Assembly (NCBI RefSeq): GCF_025143825.1
Contig: NZ_CP083560.1
Coordinates: forward strand, 1,674,001 to 1,738,000
Origin: Sulfitobacter sp. S223
GTDB taxonomy: Bacteria; Pseudomonadota; Alphaproteobacteria; Rhodobacterales; Rhodobacteraceae
Reading direction: 5' to 3'
Length of the DNA: 64,000 bases
Positions 41,162-63,932 of the stretch are shown in pieces. Positions within the stretch are counted from its first letter, which is position 1; every line of letters starts with the position of its first letter. Position numbers and translations under genes: made by a program. The notes below the pieces were generated by a model. The model had not been told where the DNA came from and searched no databases. It worked only from the letters and a program-made list of their open reading frames with translations.

Positions 41162-41762
41162 CTACCTCTTTGGCGATCTTCGTAATTGCACGCAGCCAAG
41201 CGGCAGGCTCGGGACCGCGTCAGGCGACTGACCAAAGCTTTTACCACCTTCGATGTGGCAGATGACGATTTTCAACCGATTGCGCTCGGAGAACGCCTCT
41301 ATCCCGCTTGATCGCAGCAGAGTGTACCCGTTGCCATCGGCTAAGGGCGATGGGATTTGCCCGATCTGGTTTACAAAGGTCCGCACTATCATCGGATCTG
41401 CCCAGGCTAACGACTCTGGGAAGTTCGACGACAGAAGATCATAGGCATAGGCATAGGCGAAATGGACCTGTCGCCTTTTCGTGCCGCCCAAGTGTTCGTT
41501 TAAGCCACCTTCCGATCGAATGCGGCGGGACTTTTCCACACCAATGATGAATGGCGGCGACTTGGATTATAGAAGCCTTTGATGTTTTCGAGACCGCCAT
41601 CTCAGCCTGTCTGCGGATGGCGCGTTTGATATCGTTGACGATCTTCTCGCCAAGGCTTTCGCGCGTTCCAGTACTGTACAGTGCGTCAAGGTCCGCTTTG
41701 GGGAAGCTGCACTGCAGCGCTGGGTGGAACTGCCAATGTCCGGTTAGGGCCGTTCGTGTCAT
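41162..41762 (-). pseudogene. Probably frameshifted hypothetical gene
   Basis: Two overlapping reverse frames both look partly protein-like: 41439-41762 (GEKIVNDIKRAIRRQAEMAV, KVPPHSIGRW) and 41162-41539 (YAYDLLSSNFPESLAW, RNRLKIVICHIEGG). They may be two halves of one gene separated by a frameshift near 41500. The 5' end runs into a dispersed repeat at 41691-41719. No family is recognised. Confidence 0.3.
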
Positions 41763-41792
41763 TGGGAATATGATGCCCTTTCCATAGAGCGG

Positions 41793-43094
41793 TCATGGCT
41801 TTGGTGACTGGTCTGGCCCGCGTTGTTCGCTTTCGCTCACGCGCCCGATGAGATTGATCAGTTTCTTAAACAAGTTACCGATTTTGGTCTTGGATGGCTT
41901 GGGTCCAAACAGGCGTTCAATGAATGAGGGCATGTCTCTCATCGTAATGTCGCCCTCAATTACTTCTGCGTCTCCCGACGCGATCTGGGTCACCAGTTCA
42001 TCCATTGCGGCGATGCCAGCGTCCAGTTCGGCTTCTTTTTGCAAATAGCGTTCTTTTATGTCTAACGCGTGATCAGCATTGTCCTCGGCTTGCGCCAAGC
42101 TACTTTTGACCTCCTTCAGGCTGTTTTTCATATCCTTGGCTGCAGCTTTTTGCGCTGCGTGTTGTTGAGTGGACAGGCGTTGCTTACGTGGACCATCGCG
42201 CAACAGGCCACAGGGCTTGCCGACCTTCTCGTAATATCGGTCCTGGAGCTGTTTTAACGCGGCAGAGTAGGCTTCCTTTTCTGGGATCGGACCACGCGTT
42301 TTGCGTGCGACTTGGAGGTGCTCACCGTTCTCGGCCTCCCATTGCGCCATCAGGTCAGCGTTGCGTGCTGCAACCTTTTGGCATGCTTTCTCCCATGCTA
42401 TTAATTGCGCTTCCCGTTTAAGCTTGTTCTTCTTCTGGGTCTCGCGGTTCTTGGAGGGTCGGGGTTGTTTAGGCTTGTTGGGGCGCTTTTCTAATGCGGG
42501 CTTGGGGAGTGATGGGATGGCCGTTGGGGTACCCAGCTCATCACGCAACGCTGTTGCTGCCACCTTACCAGCATGGATTTTATTCGCGTCGAGCTTGGGG
42601 TCGTGTGTATTGATGGCAATGATGTGGAAATGGACAAAGCCCTCATCCAAATGCATCACAGCAGACCAATCAATGTCATCTGGCATGCGATCCGTAAAAT
42701 CAGCCAGCGCATGGTTGATCCATTCTCTTACCTCGGAGCCATGCGTTTTCTTGTCTGACAGAAGGTCGGCAGCGGGCAGGGGGTACGAATGGATTTCTGT
42801 ATACAGCGTCGCGGCATCATTGCGCAGTTTGCGTGTGTATGTCGTGCCATCTTTGCGGGTGACGGTTTCGCGCAGGCCATCCAGAATATCACTGCGCTTT
42901 TCCTGAAGTTGCCGGACAGACATGGTGCCACCGACTTTATACACCGAGCCGGGCTCTTCCACATGTTTAGAATATTCCGGCTCGCGTAACGCTTCTCCCA
43001 AAACCTGCGCGGCGGAATTGAAATGCCCGTCTGTGCCGCTCACCTTTTTGGCGGCTTCTGAATACGTTTCGATATGTATGAACTGGTATGACAC
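41793..43094 (-). CDS. HUH-type relaxase/mobilisation protein, copy A
   Basis: 433 residues. The metal-binding HxDE...HxH motif is seen at ~146-156 (HLDEGFVHFHIIAIN), typical of MOBV/MobA-MobL relaxases that nick oriT and pilot a plasmid strand into a recipient. The C-terminal half is highly charged (KPNKPKQPRPSKNRE) and ends in a coiled coil. N-terminus MSYQFIHIETYS is a beta strand as expected. It is nearly identical to the product of 61464-62765. An oriT-like structure lies upstream. The exact MOB class is not certain. Confidence 0.82.
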   Translation of the reverse strand: MSYQFIHIETYSEAAKKVSGTDGHFNSAAQVLGEALREPEYSKHVEEPGSVYKVGGTMSVRQLQEKRSDILDGLRETVTRKDGTTYTRKLRNDAATLYTEIHSYPLPAADLLSDKKTHGSEVREWINHALADFTDRMPDDIDWSAVMHLDEGFVHFHIIAINTHDPKLDANKIHAGKVAATALRDELGTPTAIPSLPKPALEKRPNKPKQPRPSKNRETQKKNKLKREAQLIAWEKACQKVAARNADLMAQWEAENGEHLQVARKTRGPIPEKEAYSAALKQLQDRYYEKVGKPCGLLRDGPRKQRLSTQQHAAQKAAAKDMKNSLKEVKSSLAQAEDNADHALDIKERYLQKEAELDAGIAAMDELVTQIASGDAEVIEGDITMRDMPSFIERLFGPKPSKTKIGNLFKKLINLIGRVSESEQRGPDQSPKP

Positions 43095-43223
43095 GGCGGT
43101 TGCTCCTGATCTTATTTATGAGGAGGTAGGCGCTTGGTTTTTCAAAACCAAGAACTCTTTCCCACAAAGCGCCTGTCTGATATAGATTTTATGTGGATAA
43201 ACAGATTATTGCAGCGCGAAGCT

Positions 43224-43265
43224 CTACCTATAGTGACAGACTATAGGTAGCTCTAAGAGCTACCT
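43224..43265. other. oriT-like overlapping hairpins, copy A
   Basis: CTACCTATAG (43224-43233) pairs with CTATAGGTAG (43241-43250) around TGACAGA. The second arm overlaps AGGTAGCTCT (43245-43254), which pairs with AGAGCTACCT (43256-43265) around one base. The two hairpins exclude each other. Position upstream of a relaxase gene suggests an origin of transfer or a regulatory switch. The rest of 43095-43488 holds no gene. Confidence 0.55.
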
Positions 43266-43488
43266 GTCTGCCCCTTGCGCCGGGGAGGCGCTCCGTCGTT
43301 TTGTACCAAAACAACTGCGCGAGACTGCGTCTCTTGCTTGATCGTTAAACAATCACGGTGATCGTTCTGCTTATTGCAGTCTCTGCCTGTTTTACACTTC
43401 GACCAGCTTGTCGACCAATCGGCTTCACTCGTGGAGAACATACCTTGTCCGTGTTTGCTCGCCGCACTGGTAAAGACGGCCCTGAAGG

Positions 43489-45717
43489 TTAGCCAATCAA
43501 CGCCTCCGTTGGTCGATCAGAGTTCGTGATGTTGTGCGCGGCCAGTACCTCGGCCAACGCGTCCCCGTCGATCTCCCGCTGCTCCAAGAGGGCTGCTGCC
43601 ACCCGCTCCACCAGTTTTACGTTGTCCTCAACGATTTCTTTCGCGCGCAGATAGTGTCCTCTGATATCCGAGTTCACGACCGATCCGAGGGGGGCGAGGG
43701 GATCGAGGTGGGTCAGCTTCACGGAACTGAGGGAGAGCAGGTTGTTTGGATAGAGCCCCCATGAATATCTTGCTTTGAACGCAATTTCCGTGGCCTGCTC
43801 CAAGTCGCTCTCTGCGCCGTTCGACACCGATCCGAGAAGGACGGCTTCTGCGGCACGGCCCCCCAGGGTGACGGCGATCTGGTCACAGACGTTTTTCTTT
43901 GTCGCGGCAAAGGGGATCTTGCCGAGATAGGCCCCACCGCGGGCCGTGATGCGCACCATGTCGGGCAAGGGTAGGCCGAGAATATGTGCTACAACGGCAT
44001 GGCCCGCTTCATGGATAGCGATGCGATGCAAATCCTCCTGGCGTCCCTCGGGCGCAACATGGTCGACAGCTGCGTGGAGGTGCTGGTTGCAGAGCGTCGT
44101 GTTGCTATGACGGGCGTTGCCCCGTGCGTCGCGGACGACGGCCGCGACCTGCGCGCCTGACATACCAAGAAGACGGTCGGCGACAGTTGCAAGATCGAGA
44201 TCCTGAGCACTTGCGCCCAGCTCAATCTCGCAGATCCGTTTGATCCCTGCGCGGTTGGGGTTCTCCAACGCCGTATGCCGATCAAAACGCCCGGGGCGGA
44301 TGATTGCAGGGTCCACGTTCTCTGGCAGATTTGTTGCGCCCAGAACGATTACACCAGCAGTGTCATTGAGCTTTGTGAGGTGCTCGAGCAGGGCGTTGAC
44401 GATTGCGGCGACATAGCCAGAATTGCGGTGTGAGACAGATCGCTTGGAAAAAGAATCCAGCTCATCAATGAAGAAAACGCAGGGGGCGCAAGCGATAGCG
44501 TTTTCCACGCTCTCGGACAGGGTCCGCAGAAAATCTCCCTGATGGCCCGCTTTTTGACAGATACCGTAGCTGGTGGCGATTAGCGGGATACCGGCAGAGC
44601 CGGCGAGGGCCTGGGCGAGAAGCGTTTTACCGGTTCCGGGAGGGCCGTAGAGGAGCACCGATGACGTGACCTCCGACCAAGGCAGATTGCCTGCCTGCCA
44701 CTGGCCGAGGTCACTGAGGAGATGCTTCATGTCCTGTTGCGCTTGGGGCGGAAGATAGATGGCATCAAGAGAGGGGCCGCGCGCCACTTTGCCTGTGCCG
44801 AGGCGGCGGGTCAGTGCGAGGAGGCGATCTGCAACCTCAAGCGTGGTCTGCTCTGCAAACGCGCTCTTGACCAGCGGCATGGGCAATTCTTGAAAGGCAG
44901 CGTCGTTGGGGAAGCGACCGCGGATCGCGACGTCTGACAGCTTTCCGGTGATGGAATGGGTCTGCCGCAAAATCTCGATGACCATATCGCCCGTGACTGG
45001 GGGCAAGGTAGCAGTCCGCGTGCATAGCAGCTGCCCGCTGCGCGGCAGATCATCGCGGGTTCTGGCGACAACGATCACGTTGTTCCCTTTAGCGATCAGC
45101 CGGTCAACCTTGTCGTTGAACTCCTTGCGGCCGCGATGGCTTGATGCGGCCTGAACATTCGGAAGCTCCGCAACAGCGATGCCATGTAAGTGGATGCCTG
45201 CCTCATCAAGGGCCTGTGCGGTCTGTTCCAAGATGTCAGGGAACATTTCGAAGAAGAGCTCGCGTTCTGCATCGTCGGGAATAGACAGCAGCGTAACAGC
45301 TTGTGGTGACACAAGAGACCGCGCCATCTCTGGCGTATTGAAGATGGCCGCAAAGCGTGCGGCAAAGATCAAACGGGTCAGCGGCAGCTTTGGCTGCTGG
45401 AGGCGGTTAGTGCCATCGGCTGCGGTGGCATAGGGGTCAATGCCGCGCGACTGCCACTCCGCAATCTCTTCGGGTCCGAGATTGTCAGCGGCCGTGGTCT
45501 GGTATGAGGGCAGGGTGGGGACGTCTTCGGGCGTATCCGGAAAATCCATCAAGTCGTCGTCATTGTCGTCATCGAAGGGGTGCTTGGAAGGAGCAAACCG
45601 GGCAGGGGTATTGGTCCGCCGGTGGTTCTCGACATAGACGTGCCGGAGGAGACTCTGCATCAGGTCGAGAGTGAAGGCGGGAGTTGCGCTGTCGCGCACG
45701 ATGGAATGGTGGGGCAT
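43489..45717 (-). CDS. FtsH-like AAA+ zinc metalloprotease, soluble form
   Basis: 742 residues. Residues 1-330 form an unfamiliar N-terminal region with an acidic patch (DDDNDDDLMD) and no membrane segment, unlike FtsH. The AAA+ module follows: Walker A GPPGTGKT at ~355, Walker B FFIDELD at ~413, ATNLPE and PGRFDR. The M41 peptidase domain has zinc motif HEAGH at ~567, LGGRAAE and the third ligand region GAESDLEQATE. It should unfold and cut proteins in the cytoplasm. ATG 45717 has GGAGG 7 bases upstream; ATG 45723 is too close. Third gene of a reverse operon with a GIY-YIG nuclease. Confidence 0.85.
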   Translation of the reverse strand: MPHHSIVRDSATPAFTLDLMQSLLRHVYVENHRRTNTPARFAPSKHPFDDDNDDDLMDFPDTPEDVPTLPSYQTTAADNLGPEEIAEWQSRGIDPYATAADGTNRLQQPKLPLTRLIFAARFAAIFNTPEMARSLVSPQAVTLLSIPDDAERELFFEMFPDILEQTAQALDEAGIHLHGIAVAELPNVQAASSHRGRKEFNDKVDRLIAKGNNVIVVARTRDDLPRSGQLLCTRTATLPPVTGDMVIEILRQTHSITGKLSDVAIRGRFPNDAAFQELPMPLVKSAFAEQTTLEVADRLLALTRRLGTGKVARGPSLDAIYLPPQAQQDMKHLLSDLGQWQAGNLPWSEVTSSVLLYGPPGTGKTLLAQALAGSAGIPLIATSYGICQKAGHQGDFLRTLSESVENAIACAPCVFFIDELDSFSKRSVSHRNSGYVAAIVNALLEHLTKLNDTAGVIVLGATNLPENVDPAIIRPGRFDRHTALENPNRAGIKRICEIELGASAQDLDLATVADRLLGMSGAQVAAVVRDARGNARHSNTTLCNQHLHAAVDHVAPEGRQEDLHRIAIHEAGHAVVAHILGLPLPDMVRITARGGAYLGKIPFAATKKNVCDQIAVTLGGRAAEAVLLGSVSNGAESDLEQATEIAFKARYSWGLYPNNLLSLSSVKLTHLDPLAPLGSVVNSDIRGHYLRAKEIVEDNVKLVERVAAALLEQREIDGDALAEVLAAHNITNSDRPTEALIG

Positions 45718-45762
45718 TGGCATGCCTCCTTTTGTTCAGTGAATAAGGGGAGAGAAGAGAGG

Positions 45763-46779
45763 TCAGGCGGCGATGTCTGGAACCTGACTGTTGGTATCGG
45801 GAAAGCGCGTTTCGATCTCGTCGAGGAGGCGGTGGATGAAGGGGGCTGCCTCGGGGCGGTAGATCTCGCGGGTGACGTTGATGGCATCGCCATACTCGGC
45901 CTTGGCCACAACCATGTCCGGAAACTGCGCGGTGAGCGTCCTGTGCGCGCGTTCCTCCTCTGCCCGGGCGTCGTGTCCGGTCGGCAGGTTCACGACACGC
46001 AGCACCTCCGTGGTGATGCCTTTGTCGATGCCCAGCTGGTGCCGGAGGCGCTTTGCCGGACGTGCGCTGTAGCCGAGCTTGAGAACGGGTCGTCCAGGAA
46101 GATCAATCCGAAAAATGTAGATGTGGGAAGGCCGAGCCGTTCTGCCAAGACTACAGCCCGAACAGGCGCAATCGCCCCAGACCATGTTGCCGACCATAAT
46201 GTCCTGCGTCTGTCCGCAGGTGTGACGATAGCTGCGATAGCTCGGTTTGCCGCTGGAGGCGGGACCAACGAGGTCCCAGCCGAATTTGCGTGCTTGCGCG
46301 CGATAGCGCTCTTCGCGGCATGTCTTGCAGCCGAGACCGTGCCCTCCGTCAGCCGCGAGTGCTACCCGGTGGAACTGGCGCCGCACCTGATGCCCACAGG
46401 AGAGCTGGTAAAACCCATAGTGGCGGCGTTTGGGGGCACGCCCCAAGAGCACTGCACCTACTGTCCGTGCATGCTCAATGCGCTGGTGCTTGATGCAATG
46501 GGGGCATTCGGGGCTATGCCCGAGAACGACACTCACGCGTTTTGCATGTGTGCAGCCGCAGTCATGACAGAGCAGTGCAACATGCAGTCGGTCTTTGACG
46601 CGATCAACGATGGTGAAGCCCTTTTTGCGCGCGGCCTTCCGCCATTTTGCTGGGACCTTTCCGTCGAAAGGGGCGTAAGTCGGGGTGGCGGAGCGAGAAA
46701 GCCGGACATAGTCGGGAAACAGTGCGGCATGGGTGGATGTGTGCTCGGCAGGCATAGGGGTGACGGGGGGCAGCATCAT
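45763..46779 (-). CDS. Cys-rich GIY-YIG endonuclease-like protein
   Basis: 338 residues. Residues ~65-215 contain a series of Cys/His clusters (CHDCGCTH, CPHC, CGHQ, CKTC, HTCG, CACSGC) like repeated zinc ribbons. A GIY-YIG/T5orf172 nuclease domain follows from ~218: HIYIF, then LKLGYSARPAKRLRHQL with the catalytic Arg, and a Glu in AEEERAHRTL. The likely role is sequence- or structure-specific DNA cleavage. It lies 45 bases upstream of the FtsH-like protease gene and shares its strand. A long antisense frame is a shadow. Confidence 0.75.
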   Translation of the reverse strand: MMLPPVTPMPAEHTSTHAALFPDYVRLSRSATPTYAPFDGKVPAKWRKAARKKGFTIVDRVKDRLHVALLCHDCGCTHAKRVSVVLGHSPECPHCIKHQRIEHARTVGAVLLGRAPKRRHYGFYQLSCGHQVRRQFHRVALAADGGHGLGCKTCREERYRAQARKFGWDLVGPASSGKPSYRSYRHTCGQTQDIMVGNMVWGDCACSGCSLGRTARPSHIYIFRIDLPGRPVLKLGYSARPAKRLRHQLGIDKGITTEVLRVVNLPTGHDARAEEERAHRTLTAQFPDMVVAKAEYGDAINVTREIYRPEAAPFIHRLLDEIETRFPDTNSQVPDIAA

Positions 46780-46852
46780 GATGAGGCGCTCCTATATGTG
46801 ATTTGAAAAGGGAGGGTCAGGACCGCGTCAGACGCGGTCCGTGTGCTTGAGA

Positions 46853-47329
46853 TCAGGCAGCGTGCAGGGTGTGATCCCGCTCGAAAAACGCGGCTTGCAT
46901 AGACGCGATCCCGAACAACAGAGGAAGCGCCCGGTCCAACAGGTTGCGCAGGTCTGTGCCGCGCGGCGCAGATGCGCGACGAGCGATTGCCGCTTCCATC
47001 GTCTCACTCAGCGTGGGGTGATCGCCCGTCTCGATATCGAGCAGTGACACCAACTCCTTCACCGTCTCGATAAGCAGGGGAACAGCAGTGGCACCTGCAT
47101 GCGCGCGCAGAAACGCAAAAGCGGACGCTTCGGTCGCGACCCAGGCATCGGCCGTCGCTTCACCCGCACTCTCGACGGCGGAGTAGTCGAGATGCGGCAT
47201 GTGCTTCACATCCTGGTCCAGCGCGATGGTGCGCTCCATATGATGCAGCACCTCCTCAAAAGCCTTGAGAGAAAACGGGGAGGGGGTGGCGGAATGCGCG
47301 GCGCGCGTGGTAATCGTGTTGATAGGCAT
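46853..47329 (-). CDS. Hypothetical helical protein, 158 aa
   Basis: No family recognised. The protein is predicted mostly alpha-helical and acidic (FEEVLHHMERTIALDQDV; LLIETVKELVSLLDIETGD), without signal peptide or membrane segment. An AGGAG site lies 7 bases before the ATG. It is the first gene of the operon with the GIY-YIG nuclease and FtsH-like protease and is divergent from an RHH regulator, which suggests it is a functional part, such as an adaptor or inhibitor, but that is inference. Confidence 0.65.
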   Translation of the reverse strand: MPINTITTRAAHSATPSPFSLKAFEEVLHHMERTIALDQDVKHMPHLDYSAVESAGEATADAWVATEASAFAFLRAHAGATAVPLLIETVKELVSLLDIETGDHPTLSETMEAAIARRASAPRGTDLRNLLDRALPLLFGIASMQAAFFERDHTLHAA

Positions 47330-47434
47330 GAGGATCTCCTAAGGATCGTTGTGACAAGTGTGGGAGAGGGAGTTGCACCTCCGTCTCTCACACGCTATAA
47401 TTAACTTTATAAATTTAAAAAGTCAATCGGTGAT

Positions 47435-47626
47435 ATGAAAAAAATTGGGCGCCCATCAAAAAACACCGAGCAGGTCACTGTGAGACTGCTGGTCAATACT
47501 ATTGAAGCCATAGATGCAGCGCGCAGATCAGAGGATGATCTGCCCAGCAGGCCGGAGATGATCCGCAGGATGATTGATGATTGGTTGGACCGGCATGCTG
47601 AAGAGAACCTGAAGAAGGTTGAATAA
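47435..47626 (+). CDS. Small ribbon-helix-helix DNA-binding protein
   Basis: 63 residues: a basic start (KKIGRPSKN), a beta strand (QVTVRLLVNTIEAID) and helices with SRPEMIRRMIDDWL, the RHH pattern. It is divergent from the three-gene operon beginning at 47329; the AT-rich 105-base gap between them (TATAATTAACTTTATAAATTT) probably holds both promoters and its operator. Likely local autoregulator. Confidence 0.75.
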   Translation: MKKIGRPSKNTEQVTVRLLVNTIEAIDAARRSEDDLPSRPEMIRRMIDDWLDRHAEENLKKVE

Positions 47627-48276: not shown

Positions 48277-50784
48277 ATGAGCAGCGAAAATTCGACCACA
48301 TTCCATGTCCGCGAGATGTCCTGCGCCTCTTGTGTCGGGCGGGTAGAAAAAGCGTTGCTGGCCGTGCCGGGGGTGCAGTCGGCATCGGTAAACCTTGCGG
48401 CAGAGACGGCGACAGTCGCGATGGCGGAAGGGTCCGATATGGAGCCTATCGTCACTGCGCTCAAAGACGCGGGCTACCCTGCGGAGCTTCAAACATACAG
48501 GTTTTCAATCGAAAATATGTCTTGTGCATCATGTGTAGGGCGGGTCGAACGTGCCCTTGGCGCAGTGCCCGGTGTTGTGACGGCTTCGGTCAATCTGGCG
48601 CAAGAGAGCGCAAGAGTTCAGGCACTTGGTGTCTCTGCGGCACAGATTTCACAGGTGGCGGGCGCTGCCGGTTATCCGGCGCGGCTGATCATGGATGAGG
48701 GCGACACGGACGATACCCGCGACCGCAAGGCATCTGAGGCTGCACATCTCAAGACGATGACACTGCTGGCCGCAGCGTTGACCCTACCTGTGTTCGTCCT
48801 TGAGATGGGCAGTCACCTGATCCCTGCGCTGCACATGTGGATCATGGACACGATGGGCATGGGGCTTAACTGGGGGATCCAGTTTGTCCTGACGACTCTT
48901 GTTCTCGCGATCCCCGGGCGGCAGTTCTATCTCAAAGGGTTTCCTGCGCTGTTCAAGGGTGCGCCGGATATGAATTCCCTTGTTGCTCTTGGCACGTCTG
49001 CGGCATGGGGGTTTTCCACTGTCGCCTTGTTTGTGCCGATGCTTTTGCCAGAGGGCACGCGCGCAGTTTACTTTGAGGCGGCGGCGGTCATTGTCACCCT
49101 AATTCTGCTGGGCCGCTTCCTCGAGGCCCGCGCCAAAGGGCGCACGGGGCAGGCGATTGAACGACTTGTTGGGCTCAAGGCAAAGACGGCCCATGTGGAG
49201 CGGAGCGGCGAGATTGTGGAGCTGTCTGTCGATGAAATTGTGGTTGGTGATCTGGTGCAGGTGCGGCCAGGAGAAAAAATCGCCCTCGACGGGGTCGTGG
49301 TACGTGGCGTGTCTTATGTCGATGAGAGCATGATGACCGGAGAGCCTGTTCCCGCTGAGAAATCGGAAGGCACAGAGGTTGTCGGTGGCACGGTAAACGG
49401 CACTGGCGCGCTGACATTCCGCGCCACGAAAGTGGGCGCTGATACAATGCTGGCGCAGATTATCCGCATGGTGGAAGAGGCGCAGGGCGCCAAACTGCCT
49501 ATTCAGGACTTGGTCAACCGGATCACGCTTTGGTTTGTGCCTGCAGTGATGGGAGTTGCGGCGCTGACTTTTGTCGCATGGTTGGTGCTGGGGCCGTCTC
49601 CCGCCCTCGGCCTTGCGGTGGTAGCCGCAGTTGCTGTCCTGATCATTGCTTGCCCCTGTGCGATGGGGCTGGCGACGCCCACGTCGATCATGGTGGGCAC
49701 GGGCCGTGCTGCGGAGCTCGGCGTTTTGTTCCGGCGTGGCGATGCCTTGCAGTCGCTGGGCGATATCGAAATTGTTGCGTTTGATAAGACCGGCACACTG
49801 ACGCAAGGGCGTCCGGAGTTGACCGATCTGCAGGTGATAGAAGGGTTCCAAGAGAGTGATGTGCTGCGGCTGGTGGCCTCGGTTGAGGCGACGTCCGAGC
49901 ATCCTATCGCCGCTGCGATTGTGCGGCGTGCGGAACAGGAGGGGCTGGCCCTCGGCGTTGTCGACGCGTTCCAGTCGATCACAGGGTACGGTGTCAGCGC
50001 CGTAGTTGACGGGCATGAGATTCTCGTCGGAGCCGACCGCCTGATGGTGCGTGAAGGTATCTCGCTTGATGCCGTGCAAGAATTGGGAAGAGCGCTTGGG
50101 CAGGCGGGCAAGACCCCGCTCTATGCTGCAATTGACGGGCGTTTGGCCGCTATCATTGCAGTATCTGACCCCATCAAACCCAGCACGGCACAGGCAATCG
50201 AAGCACTGCACGCGCTGGGACTTAAGGTTGCGATGATCACGGGTGATAATCAGGCCACGGCGGAAGCAATTGCTTCACAGTTGGGCATTGATACGGTCGT
50301 TGCCGAGGTCCTGCCAGAGGGTAAGGTCGCAGCACTACAACAGCTGCAAGCGGTCGGGCGAAAGATAGCGTTTGTCGGGGATGGTATTAATGATGCACCT
50401 GCTTTGGCCCATGCGGATATAGGGGTGGCCATCGGCACTGGCACCGATGTGGCGATCGAGGCGGCGGATGTTGTGCTGATGTCTGGTGACCTGAACGGGG
50501 TCGTGAACGCGCTGCATGTGAGCAAACGCACAATGCGCAACATCCGCCAGAACCTGTTCTGGGCCTTCGGCTATAATGCCTTGCTGATCCCGGTGGCGGC
50601 GGGGGTGTTCTATCCGCTCTCGGGTCTGATGCTTTCACCCGCACTCGCTGCAGGTGCGATGGCGTTGTCGAGTGTGTTCGTGCTGTCAAATGCGCTGCGG
50701 CTGCGGTGGATCGCCCCTGTTGCTGCGGAAGTGCAAACGACACGCATTGATACTGGGAAATTTGTGCCCACAGCAGCAGAATAG
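48277..50784 (+). CDS. copA: Copper-exporting P1B-type ATPase
   Basis: 835 residues. Two N-terminal metal-binding domains each with [11 protein letters not shown] (Cys at 16/19 and 83/86), eight membrane segments, TGEPVPAEK, the metal-site CPC at ~457, phosphorylation motif DKTGTLT at ~502, SEHP and [14 protein letters not shown]. It pumps Cu(I) from cytoplasm to periplasm. Controlled by the CueR-type promoter just upstream and followed by the cueR gene itself. A few antisense frames inside are shadows. Confidence 0.96.
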
Positions 50785-54821: not shown

Positions 54822-56180
54822 ATGTTGAACAGACGTCAATTACTCGGAGCAGGTGCTGCTGGTGCAACGCTTGTCTCTTCCCAAGCTTGGGGCAAGACAT
54901 TGAACATGGGCTTGCCGGAAGCTGCACAAATGGACAGTGCGGCAACGGCAATCACGCCGCGCCCCTCTTCGGGTGTGGATTACAATCCTGTTGTGACCCT
55001 GAATGGATGGACCCTGCCGCACCGCATGAACAACGGGGTCAAGGAATTCCATCTTGTCGCCGAGCCGGTGGAGCGCGAACTGGCCGATGGTATGATCGCC
55101 CATCTCTGGGGCTATAACGGCCAGTCGACCGGCCCCACGATCGAGGCCGTCGAGGGTGACCGTGTGCGGATATATGTCACCAACAAATTACCTGAGAATA
55201 CCTCCGTGCATTGGCACGGACTGATCCTGCCCTCAGGCATGGACGGTGTGGTGGGCCTCAGCCATCCGGGGATCAAACCGGGCAAAACCTTTGTCTATGA
55301 GTTTGACCTGATCAAATCCGGCACCTTCATGTATCACCCTCACGCGGACGAGATGGTGCAGATGGCCATGGGGATGATGGGCATGTTTGTGGTCCACCCC
55401 AAAGACCCGACCTTCATGCCAGTCGATCGCGATTTCCTGATCATGCTCAATGCTTTCGACATTGATCCCGGCACTTATGTCCCGCGCATCATGACCATGT
55501 CTGACTTCAACCTTTGGACATGGAATAGCCGGATTTTTCCCGACATTGATCCGCTGGTTGTGAACCGAGGCGACAAGGTGCGCGTTCGGGTCGGGAACCT
55601 CACGATGACCAACCACCCGATCCACATGCACGGTTATGACTTCAAGGTGACCTGTACCGATGGCGGCTGGGTGCCGGAGTCTGCGCAATGGCCTGAAGTC
55701 AGTATTGATATTCCGGTGGGTGCAATGCGGGCGTATGAGTTCACCGCCGATCACTTGGGCGACTGGGCTATCCACTGTCACAAGTCGCATCACACGATGA
55801 ATGCCATGGGTCATGACGTGCCAACGTTCATCGGCGTCAACAAAGAGCAGTTGACCAAAAAAATCCGCTCGTTCCAGCCTGACTATATGCCGATGGGCAC
55901 CGCTGGCATGGGCGACATGGGCAAGATGACGATGGAGTTGCCGGATAACACCATTCCGATGATGAACGGCTGGGGGCCGCACGGACCTATCGAGATGGGC
56001 GGCATGTTCTCTGTTGTGAAAGTCCGCGAAGGCATCGAGGCAGACGATTACGAGGACCCAGGTTGGTACGACAACCCTCCCGGTGAGCAAGCCTATGAAT
56101 GGACTGGCGAGTTGCCGGAGTTTGCCTCCAACGACAGTCCGAAAACCATTCTCACACCCAGACCAACGCAGAAGGGCTGA
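54822..56180 (+). CDS. Multicopper oxidase, Tat-exported
   Basis: 452 residues. Twin-arginine signal NRRQLLGAGAAGATLV. The four copper-ligand motifs are HWHG at ~129, HPHAD at ~170, HPIHMHG at ~263 and HCHKSHHTMNAM at ~317, giving type 1, 2 and 3 sites. A Met-rich segment (MAMGMMGM, MGTAGMGDMGKM) suggests oxidation of Cu(I) to Cu(II) in the periplasm, as in CueO/CopA oxidases. AAAGGAAATTTGAA precedes the ATG. Confidence 0.92.
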   Translation: MLNRRQLLGAGAAGATLVSSQAWGKTLNMGLPEAAQMDSAATAITPRPSSGVDYNPVVTLNGWTLPHRMNNGVKEFHLVAEPVERELADGMIAHLWGYNGQSTGPTIEAVEGDRVRIYVTNKLPENTSVHWHGLILPSGMDGVVGLSHPGIKPGKTFVYEFDLIKSGTFMYHPHADEMVQMAMGMMGMFVVHPKDPTFMPVDRDFLIMLNAFDIDPGTYVPRIMTMSDFNLWTWNSRIFPDIDPLVVNRGDKVRVRVGNLTMTNHPIHMHGYDFKVTCTDGGWVPESAQWPEVSIDIPVGAMRAYEFTADHLGDWAIHCHKSHHTMNAMGHDVPTFIGVNKEQLTKKIRSFQPDYMPMGTAGMGDMGKMTMELPDNTIPMMNGWGPHGPIEMGGMFSVVKVREGIEADDYEDPGWYDNPPGEQAYEWTGELPEFASNDSPKTILTPRPTQKG

Positions 56181-59447: not shown

Positions 59448-60590
59448 TCAGCGACCGACCAAGGCCGCGACGCGCGGTAAGGCAGACGCGAAATTTTCTT
59501 CAGCAATCTCGGTTCCGGCAACATCCATTAGGGGCATCTTCACTGGCTTCATAGCTTTGCCTTGCCGCATTTCGTAGGCCACGGGTGCCGCGTCACGCAA
59601 TCCATTTATCCCACTGGCCGTGCCGCTATGTAAGGTCACATCAAAGCTGTCTGGATCCGCAATCGCACCTTCAAAGACTTCTCGTCCCTGCAAGATCAAC
59701 CAGCCACGAAAGTCCTCGAAGGCGTCATCTGAACATCCACCTTGCAACAGATAGGCCAAGGCCCACACGTCCCAACGATAGGCACGCGCATCAAGGCTGC
59801 GTTGGATCTTTTCAAAGTCGCGAATTGCTGTCGCTTTGAATGCAGCCAGTCTTTCGGGAAGCGTGTCGATCCGTTCGCCGATTGGCTGATCCGTCAGACC
59901 TTCATCGATCAGGTCCCAAAATAAATTTTCGTCCATTCTACGCGGATCGGGTTTGCCTTTGGGACGCGGTCTTTTTTCGGCGTCAATTGCTGCAATGTCG
60001 GCGTGGATGCGGGTCAGTTCCGTTTCGCTTGCACCAGTCATTTCTGCTGTTTTGCGATAGTCGGCCATTATAGCCAATAACTCCTGCTTCATCGTCGGAA
60101 TGCGGCTAATCAGTTTTTCGTAATCGCGGCTTTGTTTTTGCTCCGACGCCTGATAATATTTGGCGATACGGAAGCCCGCATTTCGTTCACTGATATACCA
60201 CCAAAACTCCCCCTTGATGAGCCCCATATGTGAGCGCCAAATCCGCCGCACGCGCGCGCCCTCGCCCATCGCTTGCAACCGGTCTAACACGGTCAGATGT
60301 CCGTCACTGATCGGACCGAAAGAGACTTCACCTGAAGGGGTGTAGTGTGCTTCGATCTGGTCAAACCGTTTTTCCTCGAAATAGAATTCGGTCAGCCATT
60401 CGTTTAGATCTTGTAAATACAGATCGTAAAGCGATCGACCTTTTTCATGTGCCACAACACCGCGGTCGACGAGTTCTACCAAAGCGTCTGTGTATCGTTC
60501 CCAATCATCATCGATGGAACGAAATCGCGGCATAAACCCAGTGATCCGTCCATCTTCGAAGCCCATCGAGTCGATTTCACTTTTTCGCAT
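59448..60590 (-). CDS. DUF4240 domain protein
   Basis: 380 residues. The C-terminal part from ~218 (DENLFWDLIDEG, YRWDVWALAYLLQGGCSDDAFEDFRGWLILQGREVFEGA) matches the DUF4240 pattern. The N-terminal ~200 residues are rich in aromatic and charged residues (FEEKRFDQIEAHY; IKGEFWWYISER) and unassigned. No signal or membrane segment. DUF4240 proteins are of unknown function and are often found in polymorphic-toxin immunity or stress contexts; nothing here decides that. Confidence 0.75.
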   Translation of the reverse strand: MRKSEIDSMGFEDGRITGFMPRFRSIDDDWERYTDALVELVDRGVVAHEKGRSLYDLYLQDLNEWLTEFYFEEKRFDQIEAHYTPSGEVSFGPISDGHLTVLDRLQAMGEGARVRRIWRSHMGLIKGEFWWYISERNAGFRIAKYYQASEQKQSRDYEKLISRIPTMKQELLAIMADYRKTAEMTGASETELTRIHADIAAIDAEKRPRPKGKPDPRRMDENLFWDLIDEGLTDQPIGERIDTLPERLAAFKATAIRDFEKIQRSLDARAYRWDVWALAYLLQGGCSDDAFEDFRGWLILQGREVFEGAIADPDSFDVTLHSGTASGINGLRDAAPVAYEMRQGKAMKPVKMPLMDVAGTEIAEENFASALPRVAALVGR

Positions 60591-60726
60591 TATTCGTCCT
60601 CAGTTGATCGATCGCCAACGGTCTCGAATTCAAAGAATGCTTTCTGACCTGTTCAAGGTAAAGACTAAACATTTTCAATCAATCACCGAAGCAGCCGTCG
60701 GCGCAGAGCGCAGTATTCTGCACTTT

Positions 60727-60885
60727 GGGCTCGAAGCCGAAATTCGCTGCGATTGCACATCGAAAAAACTGGATTACAGCCCTGAGCGTCAGCTTTCTTC
60801 AAATGGCCCAATTTAGTTTGCGGCCGCGGCGAAGGTAGGCAATCCGTCTAACGTGTTAGACAGCCATGTCCGCTTTGGGCTGGGA
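60727..60885. repeat. 159-bp inverted repeat, left copy
   Basis: Identical to the reverse complement of 63672-63830 except for one base. It contains a short dyad GTCTAAC-GT-GTTAGAC at about 60846-60861, GCGGCCGCGGCG, and the ATTCGCTGCG and GTCCGC words of the dispersed repeats. It frames the second relaxase unit with its partner. Confidence 0.9.
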
Positions 60886-61018
60886 CCGGTCATCCGGTTG
60901 GGCGCGGCGAAGCCTGCAAGGTCAAGATTTGCGTGCCGCATCGCCGCAAGTCCGGTTTGAGCCCTTGCATGACATTGGTGTACATGCAGAAATATCGTGA
61001 GGACAGGAGACACTGAGA

Positions 61019-61258: not shown

Positions 61259-61463
61259 GTGTCGAGCGTGAGGAACACCTTTGGTAACTGTTGGTGTAAT
61301 GTCGGCTTCGTCCCGCATTGCGGCCGTCCATCCACGCATAAAGCTGCATTTGCAAGCCAATGTCCGCTTCGGGGAAGTTGCACTTCGGCGGCGAGGGCTT
61401 GCGTGAACGGCAGCTAAGGGCCGTTCGTGTCATTGGGAATATGATGCCCTTTCCATAGAGCGG

Positions 61464-62765
61464 TCATGGCTTTGGTGACTGGTCTGGCCCGCGTTGTTCG
61501 CTTTCGCTCACGCGCCCGATGAGATTGATCAGTTTCTTAAACAAGTTACCGATTTTGGTCTTGGATGGCTTGGGTCCAAACAGGCGTTCAATGAATGAGG
61601 GCATGTCTCTCATCGTAATGTCGCCCTCAATTACTTCTGCGTCTCCCGACGCGATCTGGGTCACCAGTTCATCCATTGCGGCGATGCCAGCGTCCAGTTC
61701 GGCTTCTTTTTGCAAATAGCGTTCTTTTATGTCTAACGCGTGATCAGCATTGTCCTCGGCTCGCGCCAAGCTACTTTTGACCTCCTTCAGGCTGTTTTTC
61801 ATATCCTTGGCTGCAGCTTTTTGCGCTGCGTGTTGTTGAGTGGACAGGCGTTGCTTACGTGGACCATCGCGCAACAGGCCACAGGGCTTGCCGACCTTCT
61901 CGTAATATCGGTCCTGAAGCTGTTTTAACGCGGCAGAGTAGGCTTCCTTTTCTGGGATCGGACCACGCGTTTTGCGTGCGACTTGGAGGTGCTCACCGTT
62001 CTCGGCCTCCCATTGAGCCATCAGGTCAGCGTTGCGTGCTGCAACCTTTTGGCATGCTTTCTCCCATGCTGATAATTGCGCTTCCCGTTTAATCTTGTTC
62101 TTCTTCTGGGTCTCGCGGTTTTTGGAGGGGCGGGGTTGCTTGGGCTTGTTGGGGCGCTTTTCTAATGCGGGCTTGGGGAGTGATGGGATGGCCGTAGGGG
62201 TATCCAACTCATCACGCAGCATTGCTGCAGCCACCTTGCCAGCATGTAGTTTGTTCGCGTCCAGTTTGAGGTCGTGTGTATTGATGGCAATGACGTGGAA
62301 ATGGACAAAGCCCTCATCCAAATGCATCACCGCAGACCAATCAATGTCATCTGGCATGCGAGCCGTAAAATCAGCCAGCGCATGGTAGATCCATTCTCTT
62401 ATCTCGGAGCCATGCGTTTTCTTGTCTGACAGAAGGTCGGTAGCGGGCAGGGGGTGCGAATGGATTTCTGTATACAGCGTCGCGGCATCATTGCGGAGTT
62501 TGCGTGTGTATGTCGTGCCATCTTTGCGGGTGACGGTTTCGCGCAGACCATCCAGAATATCACTGCGCCTTTCCTGAAGTTGCCGGACAGACATGGTGCC
62601 ACCGACTTTATACACCGAGCCGGGCTCTTCCACATGTTTAGAATATTCCGGCTCGCGTAACGCTTCTCCCAAAACCTGTGCGGCGGAATTGAAATGCCCG
62701 TCTGTGCCGCTCACCTTTTTGGCGGCTTCTGAATACGTTTCGATATGTATGAACTGGTATGACAC
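61464..62765 (-). CDS. HUH-type relaxase/mobilisation protein, copy B
   Basis: 433 residues, same length as copy A and differing at a handful of positions (for example NTHDLKLDANKLHAGK against NTHDPKLDANKIHAGK). The HLDEGFVHFH metal motif is intact. Both copies are uninterrupted, which implies recent duplication or selection on both. Its upstream region has the same oriT-like hairpins. Confidence 0.82.
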   Translation of the reverse strand: MSYQFIHIETYSEAAKKVSGTDGHFNSAAQVLGEALREPEYSKHVEEPGSVYKVGGTMSVRQLQERRSDILDGLRETVTRKDGTTYTRKLRNDAATLYTEIHSHPLPATDLLSDKKTHGSEIREWIYHALADFTARMPDDIDWSAVMHLDEGFVHFHVIAINTHDLKLDANKLHAGKVAAAMLRDELDTPTAIPSLPKPALEKRPNKPKQPRPSKNRETQKKNKIKREAQLSAWEKACQKVAARNADLMAQWEAENGEHLQVARKTRGPIPEKEAYSAALKQLQDRYYEKVGKPCGLLRDGPRKQRLSTQQHAAQKAAAKDMKNSLKEVKSSLARAEDNADHALDIKERYLQKEAELDAGIAAMDELVTQIASGDAEVIEGDITMRDMPSFIERLFGPKPSKTKIGNLFKKLINLIGRVSESEQRGPDQSPKP

Positions 62766-62894
62766 GGCGGATGCTCCTGATCTTATTTATGAGGAGGTAG
62801 GCGCATGGTTTTTTAAAACCAAGAACTCTTTCCCATAAAGCTCCTGTCTGATATTCATTTTGTGTGGATAAACAGGTTATTGCAGCGCGAAGCT

Positions 62895-62936
62895 CTACCT
62901 ATAGTGACAGACTATAGGTAGCTCTACGAGCTACCT
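62895..62936. other. oriT-like overlapping hairpins, copy B
   Basis: Same arrangement as copy A: CTACCTATAG (62895-62904) with CTATAGGTAG (62912-62921), overlapping AGGTAGCTC (62916-62924) with GAGCTACCT (62928-62936). The loop changed from one base to three, yet both stems remain perfect, which points to selection on structure. The rest of 62766-63041 has no gene. Confidence 0.55.
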
Positions 62937-63041
62937 GTCTGCCCCTTGCGCCGGGGAGGCGCTCCGTCGTTTTGTCCCAAAACAACTGCGCGAGACTGCG
63001 TCTCTTGCATGATCGTTAAACAATAACGGTGACCGTCTGCC

Positions 63042-63420
63042 TCAATGCAATCTGGGTCTGTCTTGCATTTCCACCAGCTTGTCGCCCAATCGCTTTAACC
63101 CGCGTAACGACAAGGATTTTCCGTGATTGTTTGCTGTGCTCAACGGGCGGGCCAGCACATGCGACGTCCCCTTTACGTCTGCGTCAGGCATTGCTGCGCC
63201 AAGCAGCTCACGCCCCTTTGCGGCGAGCTGGGACACGCTTGGTTCCGTCAGCTCTACGAGCGTGCAGCGGTCCAAAAACGCTTGCGGCATGCGATCAATC
63301 GTGTTGGCCGTCATGATCCAGTTCACCGCACGCATATGGCTCACTGCCGCCTTTAGCTCGCTCGCACCGTACTCACATCTGGCGCGCGCTATCCCGGTGA
63401 AGACGGCCCTTTCCGGACTT
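63042..63420 (-). pseudogene. Fragment of an AAA+ ATPase, C-terminal part
   Basis: The reverse strand reads VNWIMTANTIDRMPQAFLDRC (sensor-1 region and arginine finger of an AAA+ ATPase), then TLVELTEPSVSQLAAKGR and a tail RLGDKLVEMQDRPRLH. The Walker A and B parts are absent; the frame upstream to 63536 is unrelated and repeat-derived. It is a 5'-truncated gene cut near the inverted repeat. Copy A keeps only a decayed trace of the tail, about 43385-43420. Confidence 0.65.
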
Positions 63421-63671
63421 TGACCGGCCATCGCATGCCGCGCTGCATTTTCCCGGAAGCAGATATTAGCTGGTCCTCTAATTTTCCCATCCACAAGCGG
63501 CTCTCTATGCGAAGTTGCACAACCCGCACACCGCATGTTAGCCCGGCCATAGCCATTCCTGGGTATGCTGCTCAGGTGTCAGTTAGGGCTGGCTCGGTGA
63601 TTGCACACCTTGCCAGCCTGAACAGGGACGGCCCAAAGCCGCCGTTAGTGTGAAGCGCGTCTAATGGCAGC

Positions 63672-63830
63672 TCCCAGCCCAAAGCGGACATGGCTGTCTA
63701 ACACGTTAGACGGATTGCCTACCTTCGCCGCGGCCGCAAACTAAATTGGGCCATTTGAAGAAAGCGGACGCTCAGGGCTGTAATCCAGTTTTTTCGATGT
63801 GCAATCGCAGCGAATTTCGGCTTCGAGCCC
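63672..63830. repeat. 159-bp inverted repeat, right copy
   Basis: Reverse complement of 60727-60885 with one mismatch (GCGTCC against GCGTCA). With it, 60727-63830 forms a 3.1-kb unit holding a small membrane protein gene, relaxase, oriT-like site and ATPase fragment. No transposase is inside. Confidence 0.9.
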
Positions 63831-63932
63831 TTGTTGACCGATGCTGCGATACGCACAAAGGTCTGCTATGATGAAAAATCGACAAACTGTCTTTCTTCGT
63901 GGTTGGCAGTAGTAATTTCTGAGGGGCCAAAG

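Follow-up and report, generated by a model that had tools for sequence, protein, structure and literature searches.

Type II toxin-antitoxin modules rely on the host proteases Lon and Clp, and the IetAS system consists of an AAA ATPase plus a subtilisin-like protease. In one group of antiviral nuclease-protease pairs, the protease is reportedly caspase-like. We analysed a 64,000-nt stretch of the Sulfitobacter sp. S223 genome (NZ_CP083560.1, 1,674,001-1,738,000; hereafter the window, to whose positions the coordinates below refer), in which one operon encodes a small protein, a Cys-rich GIY-YIG nuclease and a soluble AAA+ M41 metalloprotease, with a divergent ribbon-helix-helix (RHH) gene upstream. 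The three operon genes recur in fixed order, the nuclease position is filled by unrelated nuclease types, and the small protein ends in a degron-like, non-polar tail. No description of this gene set was found among the top-ranked results of the literature searched, some queries being very broad.

Antiviral nuclease-protease pairs place a protease gene beside a predicted DNase, are recurrent and have been repeatedly acquired in bacteria, all of which the cassette shares (PMC12799240). Their protease, however, is trypsin-like and nuclease-activating (PMC12799240), whereas that of the cassette is a soluble AAA+ M41 unfoldase-protease, according to Pfam neither trypsin-like nor caspase-like; the cassette further adds a small protein with a putative degron tail and exchange of the nuclease fold. 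With type II toxin-antitoxin modules it has in common a small first gene followed by a nuclease, an RHH regulator, plasmid-borne occurrence and a predicted lability of the small protein, but it encodes a protease, its RHH protein comes from a divergent gene of its own, apart from the small protein, and its proteins are larger. Gene order would fit a labile antitoxin and toxin in one operon, lability being suggested only by the tail. The AAA module matches the IetA profile of PADLOC (7e-28) and the IteA model of NCBIfam (4.7e-28); unlike in IetAS, this match is confined to residues 320-541, M41 lies in the same chain and a nuclease is present, and no IetS model matched any of the five proteins scanned from the window, namely those of the cassette and a relaxase. 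FtsH (TIGR01241) resembles the cassette protease in its AAA and M41 domains, HEAGH motif, third Asp ligand, Walker A and B motifs and Arg finger, but the cassette protease has no transmembrane segment, has a probable extra AAA-like N-domain, and scores 192.7 bits on a model whose cut-off is 600. SNIPE, a membrane anti-phage nuclease, likewise has a GIY-YIG effector but carries a transmembrane segment and DUF4041 (PMC13190303); in the available text of that paper, FtsH is mentioned as a labelling control only (PMC13190303).

Conservation of the cassette and exchange of its nuclease

A check of open reading frames (ORFs) in the window recovered all four genes described by an earlier sequence-only reading at the same coordinates, with the small-protein gene first in the operon and the RHH gene divergent on the opposite strand. 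Matches to the nuclease family occurred in 51 of 390 Rhodobacterales genomes, and in G051, G064, G269 and G331 these were GIY fragments only; among 385 genomes drawn from the class, it matched its own genome alone (E 1e-10). None of 50,697 phage records matched, which gives no sign of a phage origin, and a pattern-limited scan of viral contigs yielded one relative (L194). An uncultured Sulfitobacter contig (L157) encodes a nuclease identical to that of the window and shares 96% DNA identity with it across 6.3 kb. Values of dN/dS against Roseobacter sp. GAI101 were 0.22 for the small protein, 0.23 for the nuclease and 0.18 for the protease, indicating that all three are under purifying selection.

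We fetched 60 GIY neighbourhoods (L057-L116), corresponding to 61 of the 70 matching places; the window's own locus and eight weak or fragmentary places were left out. The small protein was found upstream on the nuclease strand in 56 (family hidden Markov model, HMM, at a threshold of E 0.05, with weak or short matches in L094, L107 and L115), the AAA-M41 protease downstream of the nuclease in 52, and the complete order small protein, nuclease, protease in 49. A divergent RHH relative lay upstream in 45. Recurrence of the genes together, which the sequence-only reading had proposed as a check on itself, was thus borne out. Order and orientation are fixed although the proteases are down to 26% identical to that of the window, and across 50 GIY loci the distances of small protein, nuclease and protease correlate (Mantel test, r 0.70-0.77, p 0.0005).

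Among the eight protease-less neighbourhoods, five (L059, L066, L089, L111, L113) end within 466 bp of a contig end, L109 has a broken nuclease, and L072 and L082 have no protease though about 5 kb of sequence remains. The nuclease rarely occurs without the small protein: four of the 60 had none detected by the HMM, L090 having none, L101 being ambiguous, L109 broken, and L100 holding an ORF, correct in position and length, that is likely a divergent copy missed by the HMM. Small protein and nuclease without an adjacent protease were seen in L072, L082 and five plasmid loci (L003, L006, L007, L008, L017); together with the rarity of the nuclease without the small protein, this is what would be expected if the effector depended on an antidote. 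Variant arrangements also occur, namely two tandem small-protein-like genes ahead of the GIY nuclease (L159:4940-6119, L160:4821-5905) and a small protein whose next gene is the protease, no nuclease having been found in between (L150:2740-6016).

The nuclease partner is not constant: its slot holds either of two unrelated types of nuclease and, in one locus, probably another. A PD-(D/E)XK protein (PDDEXK_5) lies between small protein and protease in six plasmid loci (L001, L002, L009-L012) from Sulfitobacter and Roseovarius plasmids, and all six slot proteins scanned matched PDDEXK_5 in Pfam (best 4.9e-07). Among the 390 genomes, 18 carry this slot family, at 23 places in all, of which 18 had their neighbours examined. 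One genome scan, limited to two scored candidates in each genome, gives minimum counts; it yielded 90 places above 330 bits, and two lying outside GIY loci (G286:C53 and G211:C8) were left out. Forty protease loci without GIY were fetched, and in 18 of them a PD-(D/E)XK protein stands beside the protease; the small protein was found by the HMM in 15 of these and by eye in L126 and L128, while L127 has an internal stop. Several of the remaining 22 end at contig borders. In L132, a third type of protein (DUF7830, 2.4e-04; CoiA_nuc at 0.11 and DUF6035 at 0.21 as hints only) lies between small protein and protease and is probably a CoiA-like nuclease.

Trees were inferred under LG+G4 by a quick search and contain some long branches that meet. 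On the tree of 82 proteases (52 GIY, 21 PD-(D/E)XK, 1 CoiA-like and 8 without nuclease), the GIY/PD-(D/E)XK label needs at least eight changes, and the well-supported branches alone force five between PD-(D/E)XK and the rest. A single clade of the 21 PD-(D/E)XK-type proteases was rejected by the approximately unbiased (AU) test (log-likelihood 949 lower, p-AU 7.6e-129). The exchanges are old, because the nearest cross-type proteases are only about 50% identical. Furthermore, small-protein and protease distances correlate with r 0.77 in GIY loci, 0.74 over all 70 loci (the small proteins of L126 and L128 being entered by hand) and 0.44 in cross-type pairs (n=1000). Because this correlation extends across nuclease types, small protein and protease form the constant core and the nuclease a cartridge.

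The small-protein tail and the competing mechanisms

The small-protein relatives are very diverse, with 14-22% identity to the window protein in a first alignment. No family matched the window protein at E <=1 in four profile libraries, and DUF6634 was ruled out, there being no similarity. The C-terminus of the family is nonetheless biased: after thinning to 75 small proteins, the last residue was non-polar (A, V, L, I, F, M or C) in 67, against 198 of 566 mechanical ORFs taken as background from the same loci (p 4.5e-20), and the non-polar fraction, 0.89 for the final residue, dropped to 0.56 and then 0.52 at the next two positions inward. The non-polar end was found at 16 of 17 PD-(D/E)XK loci and at 51 of 58 remaining loci, which comprise every locus off the PD-(D/E)XK list. 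No such bias was present in the protease (31/92), the RHH protein (2/32) or the GIY nuclease (22/59), and that of the PD-(D/E)XK nuclease (8/15) was not significant; the nuclease as the main tailed substrate was set aside on these counts. Ala-Ala ends were likewise more frequent in the small protein (26/75 versus 13/566, p 2e-17) and were not enriched in the protease (3/91) or the RHH protein (0/32). Where no protease is adjacent, the small protein of L082 ends in L, and that of L072 (L072:4454-4939) has a polar NN end instead of the usual non-polar one.

As far as the two sources cover the matter, FtsH binds C-terminal degrons, the ssrA degron being mainly non-polar (PMC10850787), and the LpxC degron ends in AVLA (PMC8138137). 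The simplest reading of the tail is that the small protein would be a substrate of the cassette's own protease. The suggestion of the sequence-only reading that the protease perhaps controls the nuclease is therefore only partly retained, since protease control is plausible but the clear degron-like tail is on the small protein and hardly on the nuclease.

The mechanism we prefer, one in which doubt still slightly outweighs belief, is a self-contained, proteolysis-controlled nuclease cassette with a labile antidote, a dedicated destroyer and an exchangeable nuclease. The small helical protein, made first, would act as a labile antidote or clamp that holds the co-encoded nuclease harmless; this role is suggested by the gene order, by the almost invariable pairing of nuclease with small protein, and by the protease-less loci that keep both. 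Its tail would be the degron for the soluble protease. Once proteolysis exceeds synthesis of the small protein, as may happen upon infection, with incoming or lost plasmid DNA or when expression is blocked, the antidote would be destroyed, the nuclease released and DNA cut. The RHH protein would repress the divergent promoter and so couple expression to need, and the regulatory core of RHH protein, small protein and protease would have been refitted with GIY-YIG or PD-(D/E)XK nucleases many times.

Several points weigh against this mechanism. That one small-protein family neutralises unrelated nuclease folds is hard to reconcile with a direct inhibitor, and the small protein may act on the protease instead, gating it. 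The five protease-less plasmid loci keep an Ala-ending tail, so the tail alone is no proof of pairing with this protease, and host ClpXP or Lon could be its readers. In L122, L125, L130 and L135, the protease stands without an HMM-found small protein or nuclease. Ala-Ala ends are also enriched, more mildly, in the GIY (7/59, p 0.001) and PD-(D/E)XK (3/13, p 0.004) nucleases, so the nuclease could be a substrate too. In addition, the use of mechanical ORFs as background is a weakness of the tail test, and the AlphaFold model of the small protein, with five helices at a low predicted local distance difference test (pLDDT) score of 52, is unreliable.

The mild Ala-Ala enrichment in nucleases would also fit activation of a pro-nuclease, in which the protease acts directly on an inactive nuclease by cutting or unfolding it; Hachiman/AVAST-type immunity, with its trypsin- or caspase-activated nucleases, is the model for this. 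A constant protease with an exchangeable nuclease is what a common activator would give, and the small protein would then be a sensor or adaptor that switches the protease on. We consider both parts of this proposal unlikely. M41 proteases unfold their substrates and then degrade them processively instead of activating them at specific sites, and the last residue of neither nuclease type is significantly biased; moreover, although nuclease-protease pairs are an established immune theme, the main text describing them mentions no FtsH, AAA, metalloprotease or GIY-YIG (PMC12799240). An off-switch, with the small protein as an adaptor co-degraded while delivering the nuclease to the protease, would make use of the constant and co-varying pair of small protein and protease (Mantel r 0.77) and of the position of the degron-like tail on the small protein. 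Here, nuclease would be low in healthy cells and accumulate once the protease is inhibited or outcompeted. Both steps strike us as decidedly improbable, as loci with small protein and nuclease but no adjacent protease would leave the nuclease unchecked unless one encoded elsewhere serves.

A further alternative concerns the role and is compatible with the preferred mechanism: the cassette might be a plasmid or island maintenance or competition set, that is, an addiction module or a rival-replicon nuclease, possibly homing-derived, rather than an immune system. We regard this as quite possible, if still somewhat doubtful. Both main nuclease families have homing-endonuclease kin, and PDDEXK_5 proteins are annotated as 'group I intron-associated' in the L009 and L012 records. 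The GIY family is carried by 17 plasmid records, all from Rhodobacterales genera; many genomes have two or three copies (the 4.03-Mb S223 genome has one), and in two genomes near-identical copies of the unit stand at two places of one contig. Against maintenance, the family also occurs on megabase contigs that are probably chromosomal, and the present data do not separate addiction from defence. Finally, the genes could merely hitch-hike on mobile DNA without joint function, a reading already disfavoured and, in our view, hardly credible. Annotated loci do lie among transposases, relaxases and changing neighbours, but order and orientation persist in spite of proteases at 26% identity, divergence is correlated and block borders are shared.

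Protein domains and feature coordinates

The window nuclease had no Pfam match, and there is no curated family for it. Among 12 aligned family members, T5orf172 matched weakly in nine (best E 0.0051) and MUG113 in three (best 0.002), and the phage endonuclease family phrog_681 matched the window protein at 1.9e-12. In 89 distinct sequences, Y221, K234 and G236 are kept in all, R244 in 88 and E275 in 87; at position 237, 60 have Y and 27 have F. The half-sites C71/C74/C92/C95, C128/H130/C151/C154 and C188/C206/C209 are conserved in 85-89 of the 89; at position 190, 69 have H, whereas the window protein has Q. These residues agree with the GIY-YIG nuclease with zinc-ribbon-like clusters first read from the sequence, which as the predicted effector would be expected to cleave DNA.

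Pfam assigned AAA (6.9e-30) and Peptidase_M41 (3e-20) to the protease. The loss of the FtsH membrane anchors claimed earlier was confirmed, the maximum 19-residue Kyte-Doolittle hydropathy being 1.32 versus 2.48 in the genome's own FtsH. Among 110 distinct relatives, the AAA residues K366, E421 and R476/R479 are kept in all and D420 in 109, T367 is T in 84 and S in 26, and the M41 residues H571, E572 and D640 are kept in 107 each and H575 in 106. The AlphaFold model (pLDDT 81) shows AAA and M41 domains resembling FtsH (2ce7). The N-terminus of about 330 residues that was earlier called new can be read as a degenerate AAA-like domain: residues 114-310 follow the strand-helix order of an AAA domain in the model, with no Walker motif seen. 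The tandem-AAA structures p97 (9yrc; Z 22.0, 352 residues, 14.8 A), Rix7 (7swl; Z 21.5, 340 residues, 15.8 A) and 7t0v (Z 21.4, 344 residues, 15.3 A) all align from residue 114/117 to 557/605, whereas the alignments of single-domain structures cover about 240 residues at roughly 2-3 A; domain orientation may account for the high root-mean-square deviation of the tandem structures. Ycf46-like viral models align over 523-557 columns; according to VIA-align, residues outside 310-605 are hardly tested. We regard the assignment as probable.

Between the RHH gene and the operon lies an imperfect palindrome that is a candidate RHH operator. Its arms pair at 13 of 15 bases around a 6-bp spacer. When the intergenic region was shuffled by base composition, one of 200 trials equalled it; by base swaps, none of 200 did.

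Features of the cassette in the window
Feature	Position	Strand	Basis
Soluble AAA+ M41 metalloprotease, 744 aa	43489..45723	-	Pfam, model, conserved residues
Probable degenerate AAA-like N-domain, residues ~114-310	44794..45384	-	AlphaFold block pLDDT 68-91; tandem-AAA alignments
Active AAA+ module, residues 312-560	44044..44790	-	Walker and Arg residues kept
M41 peptidase module, residues 564-730; HEAGH at 43999-44013, third ligand D640	43534..44034	-	Zinc-site residues kept
Cys-rich GIY-YIG (T5orf172/MUG113-like) nuclease, exchangeable effector, 338 aa	45763..46779	-	phrog_681 and GIY-YIG residues
GIY-YIG catalytic core, residues 219-307	45859..46125	-	Y221, K234, G236, R244, E275 kept
Three zinc-ribbon-like clusters, residues 71-209	46153..46569	-	Cys/His half-sites near invariant
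Small, probably all-helical protein, constant first gene, predicted labile antidote/regulator, 158 aa	46853..47329	-	Family HMM
Tail TLHAA, degron-like non-polar end	46856..46870	-	Family-wide last-residue bias
Imperfect palindrome, candidate RHH operator	47358..47393	.	Between RHH gene and operon
RHH (CopG-type) DNA-binding protein, probable autoregulator, 63 aa	47435..47626	+	Pfam RHH_1 3e-07
Block common to window and Roseobacter sp. GAI101, 89.8% DNA identity	43443..47354	-	Fetched flanks without match

Mobile block, wider relatives and significance

The block shared with GAI101 opens 25 bp upstream of the small-protein start and closes 46 bp beyond the protease stop, and the RHH gene of GAI101, outside the block, is another one (57.9 bits versus 102 for that of the window). 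We compared borders in 38 related locus pairs with at least 900 bp of flank on each side; these are not independent, as the window and L157 both pair with L158, and L064/L065 are from the same genome. Homology extended from 150-420 bp before the small protein, which leaves room for the RHH gene, to at most 600 bp past the protease stop in 14 'four-gene' pairs, began within 60 bp of the small-protein start in nine, and had other borders in 15, some with kilobases of flank in common. Shared DNA thus ends near the operon borders in 23 of the 38. The RHH gene with its promoter and the three operon genes thus behave as two modules, linked yet separable. The four-gene unit is present twice on one contig in L064/L065 (99.7% over 4285 bp) and in L079/L080 (99.98% over 4657 bp), suggesting recent movement as a unit; inspection by eye found no convincing terminal repeats or target duplications at these places.

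The two relaxase copies between which the sequence-only reading placed the cassette do exist, as direct copies at 41746-43425 and 61417-63095 (433 amino acids each, 96% identical DNA; Mob_Pre 3e-05, just under the cut-off), but a general relaxase link is not supported. A relative of this type was found once among the 60 GIY stretches, once among the 18 PD-(D/E)XK genome loci and at none of the 17 plasmid loci, so the relaxase was dropped as a part of the cassette; other relaxases are annotated near L001, L006, L009 and L012. The copies bracket the cassette and a copper stretch with an HMA P-type ATPase (48277-50784) and a multicopper oxidase (54822-56180). A 222-nt inverted repeat (60672-60893 and 63664-63885, 87% complementary) flanks the second copy, near which a DUF4240 protein is encoded (59448-60590, 2.3e-29). 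Potential defence genes annotated near related loci encode BsuBI/PstI restriction enzymes, HipA, AbiEi, a PIN protein and thermonucleases.

Of the 385 class genomes, 12, with that of S223 among them, encode related soluble AAA-M41 proteases (E 1e-94), and 11 loci were fetched from this search, G614 being left out. The protease is accompanied by a PDDEXK_5 protein in L195 (1.2e-06) and by a metallophosphoesterase in L196 (4.5e-13). A protein with a PD...ELKRG/EIKRG motif, recognised by eye, adjoins the protease in L198 (5830-6657) and L199 (5805-6374) and lies nearby in L197 (6026-6754); the two scanned, those of L197 and L198, had no Pfam support. L200-L205 have long protease forms, with no nuclease found by the HMMs used. 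Among plasmid loci, the protease has a metallophosphoesterase nearby in L018, L019, L189 and L192, and none was matched in L021, L190, L191 and L193; DUF6634 is annotated in L019, L020 and L189. Taken together, these loci may point to a wider rule in which soluble AAA-M41 proteases would be paired with varied partners.

It is possible, though we would not presume it, that the cassette represents a modular immune or addiction class in which a mobile regulatory core, made up of an RHH protein, a degron-tailed small protein and, as universal trigger, a dedicated soluble AAA+ M41 protease, is combined with unrelated nuclease cartridges (GIY-YIG, PDDEXK_5, CoiA-like). Alphaproteobacterial soluble AAA-M41 relatives may do the same with the metallophosphoesterases of L018, L019, L189, L192 and L196, with the PDDEXK_5 nuclease of L195 and with the other PD-(D/E)XK-like protein of L197-L199. 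If true, this would be a new class, the nearest known concept being nuclease-protease pairing in immunity. Toxin-antitoxin and abortive systems normally borrow host proteases; with an apparent protease of its own, this one could function across many hosts through one dedicated switch. Exchange at the nuclease position offers a natural experiment on effector swapping in an immune or addiction circuit whose control core is kept, and the degron-tail prediction makes the proposed mechanism directly testable by simple mutants.

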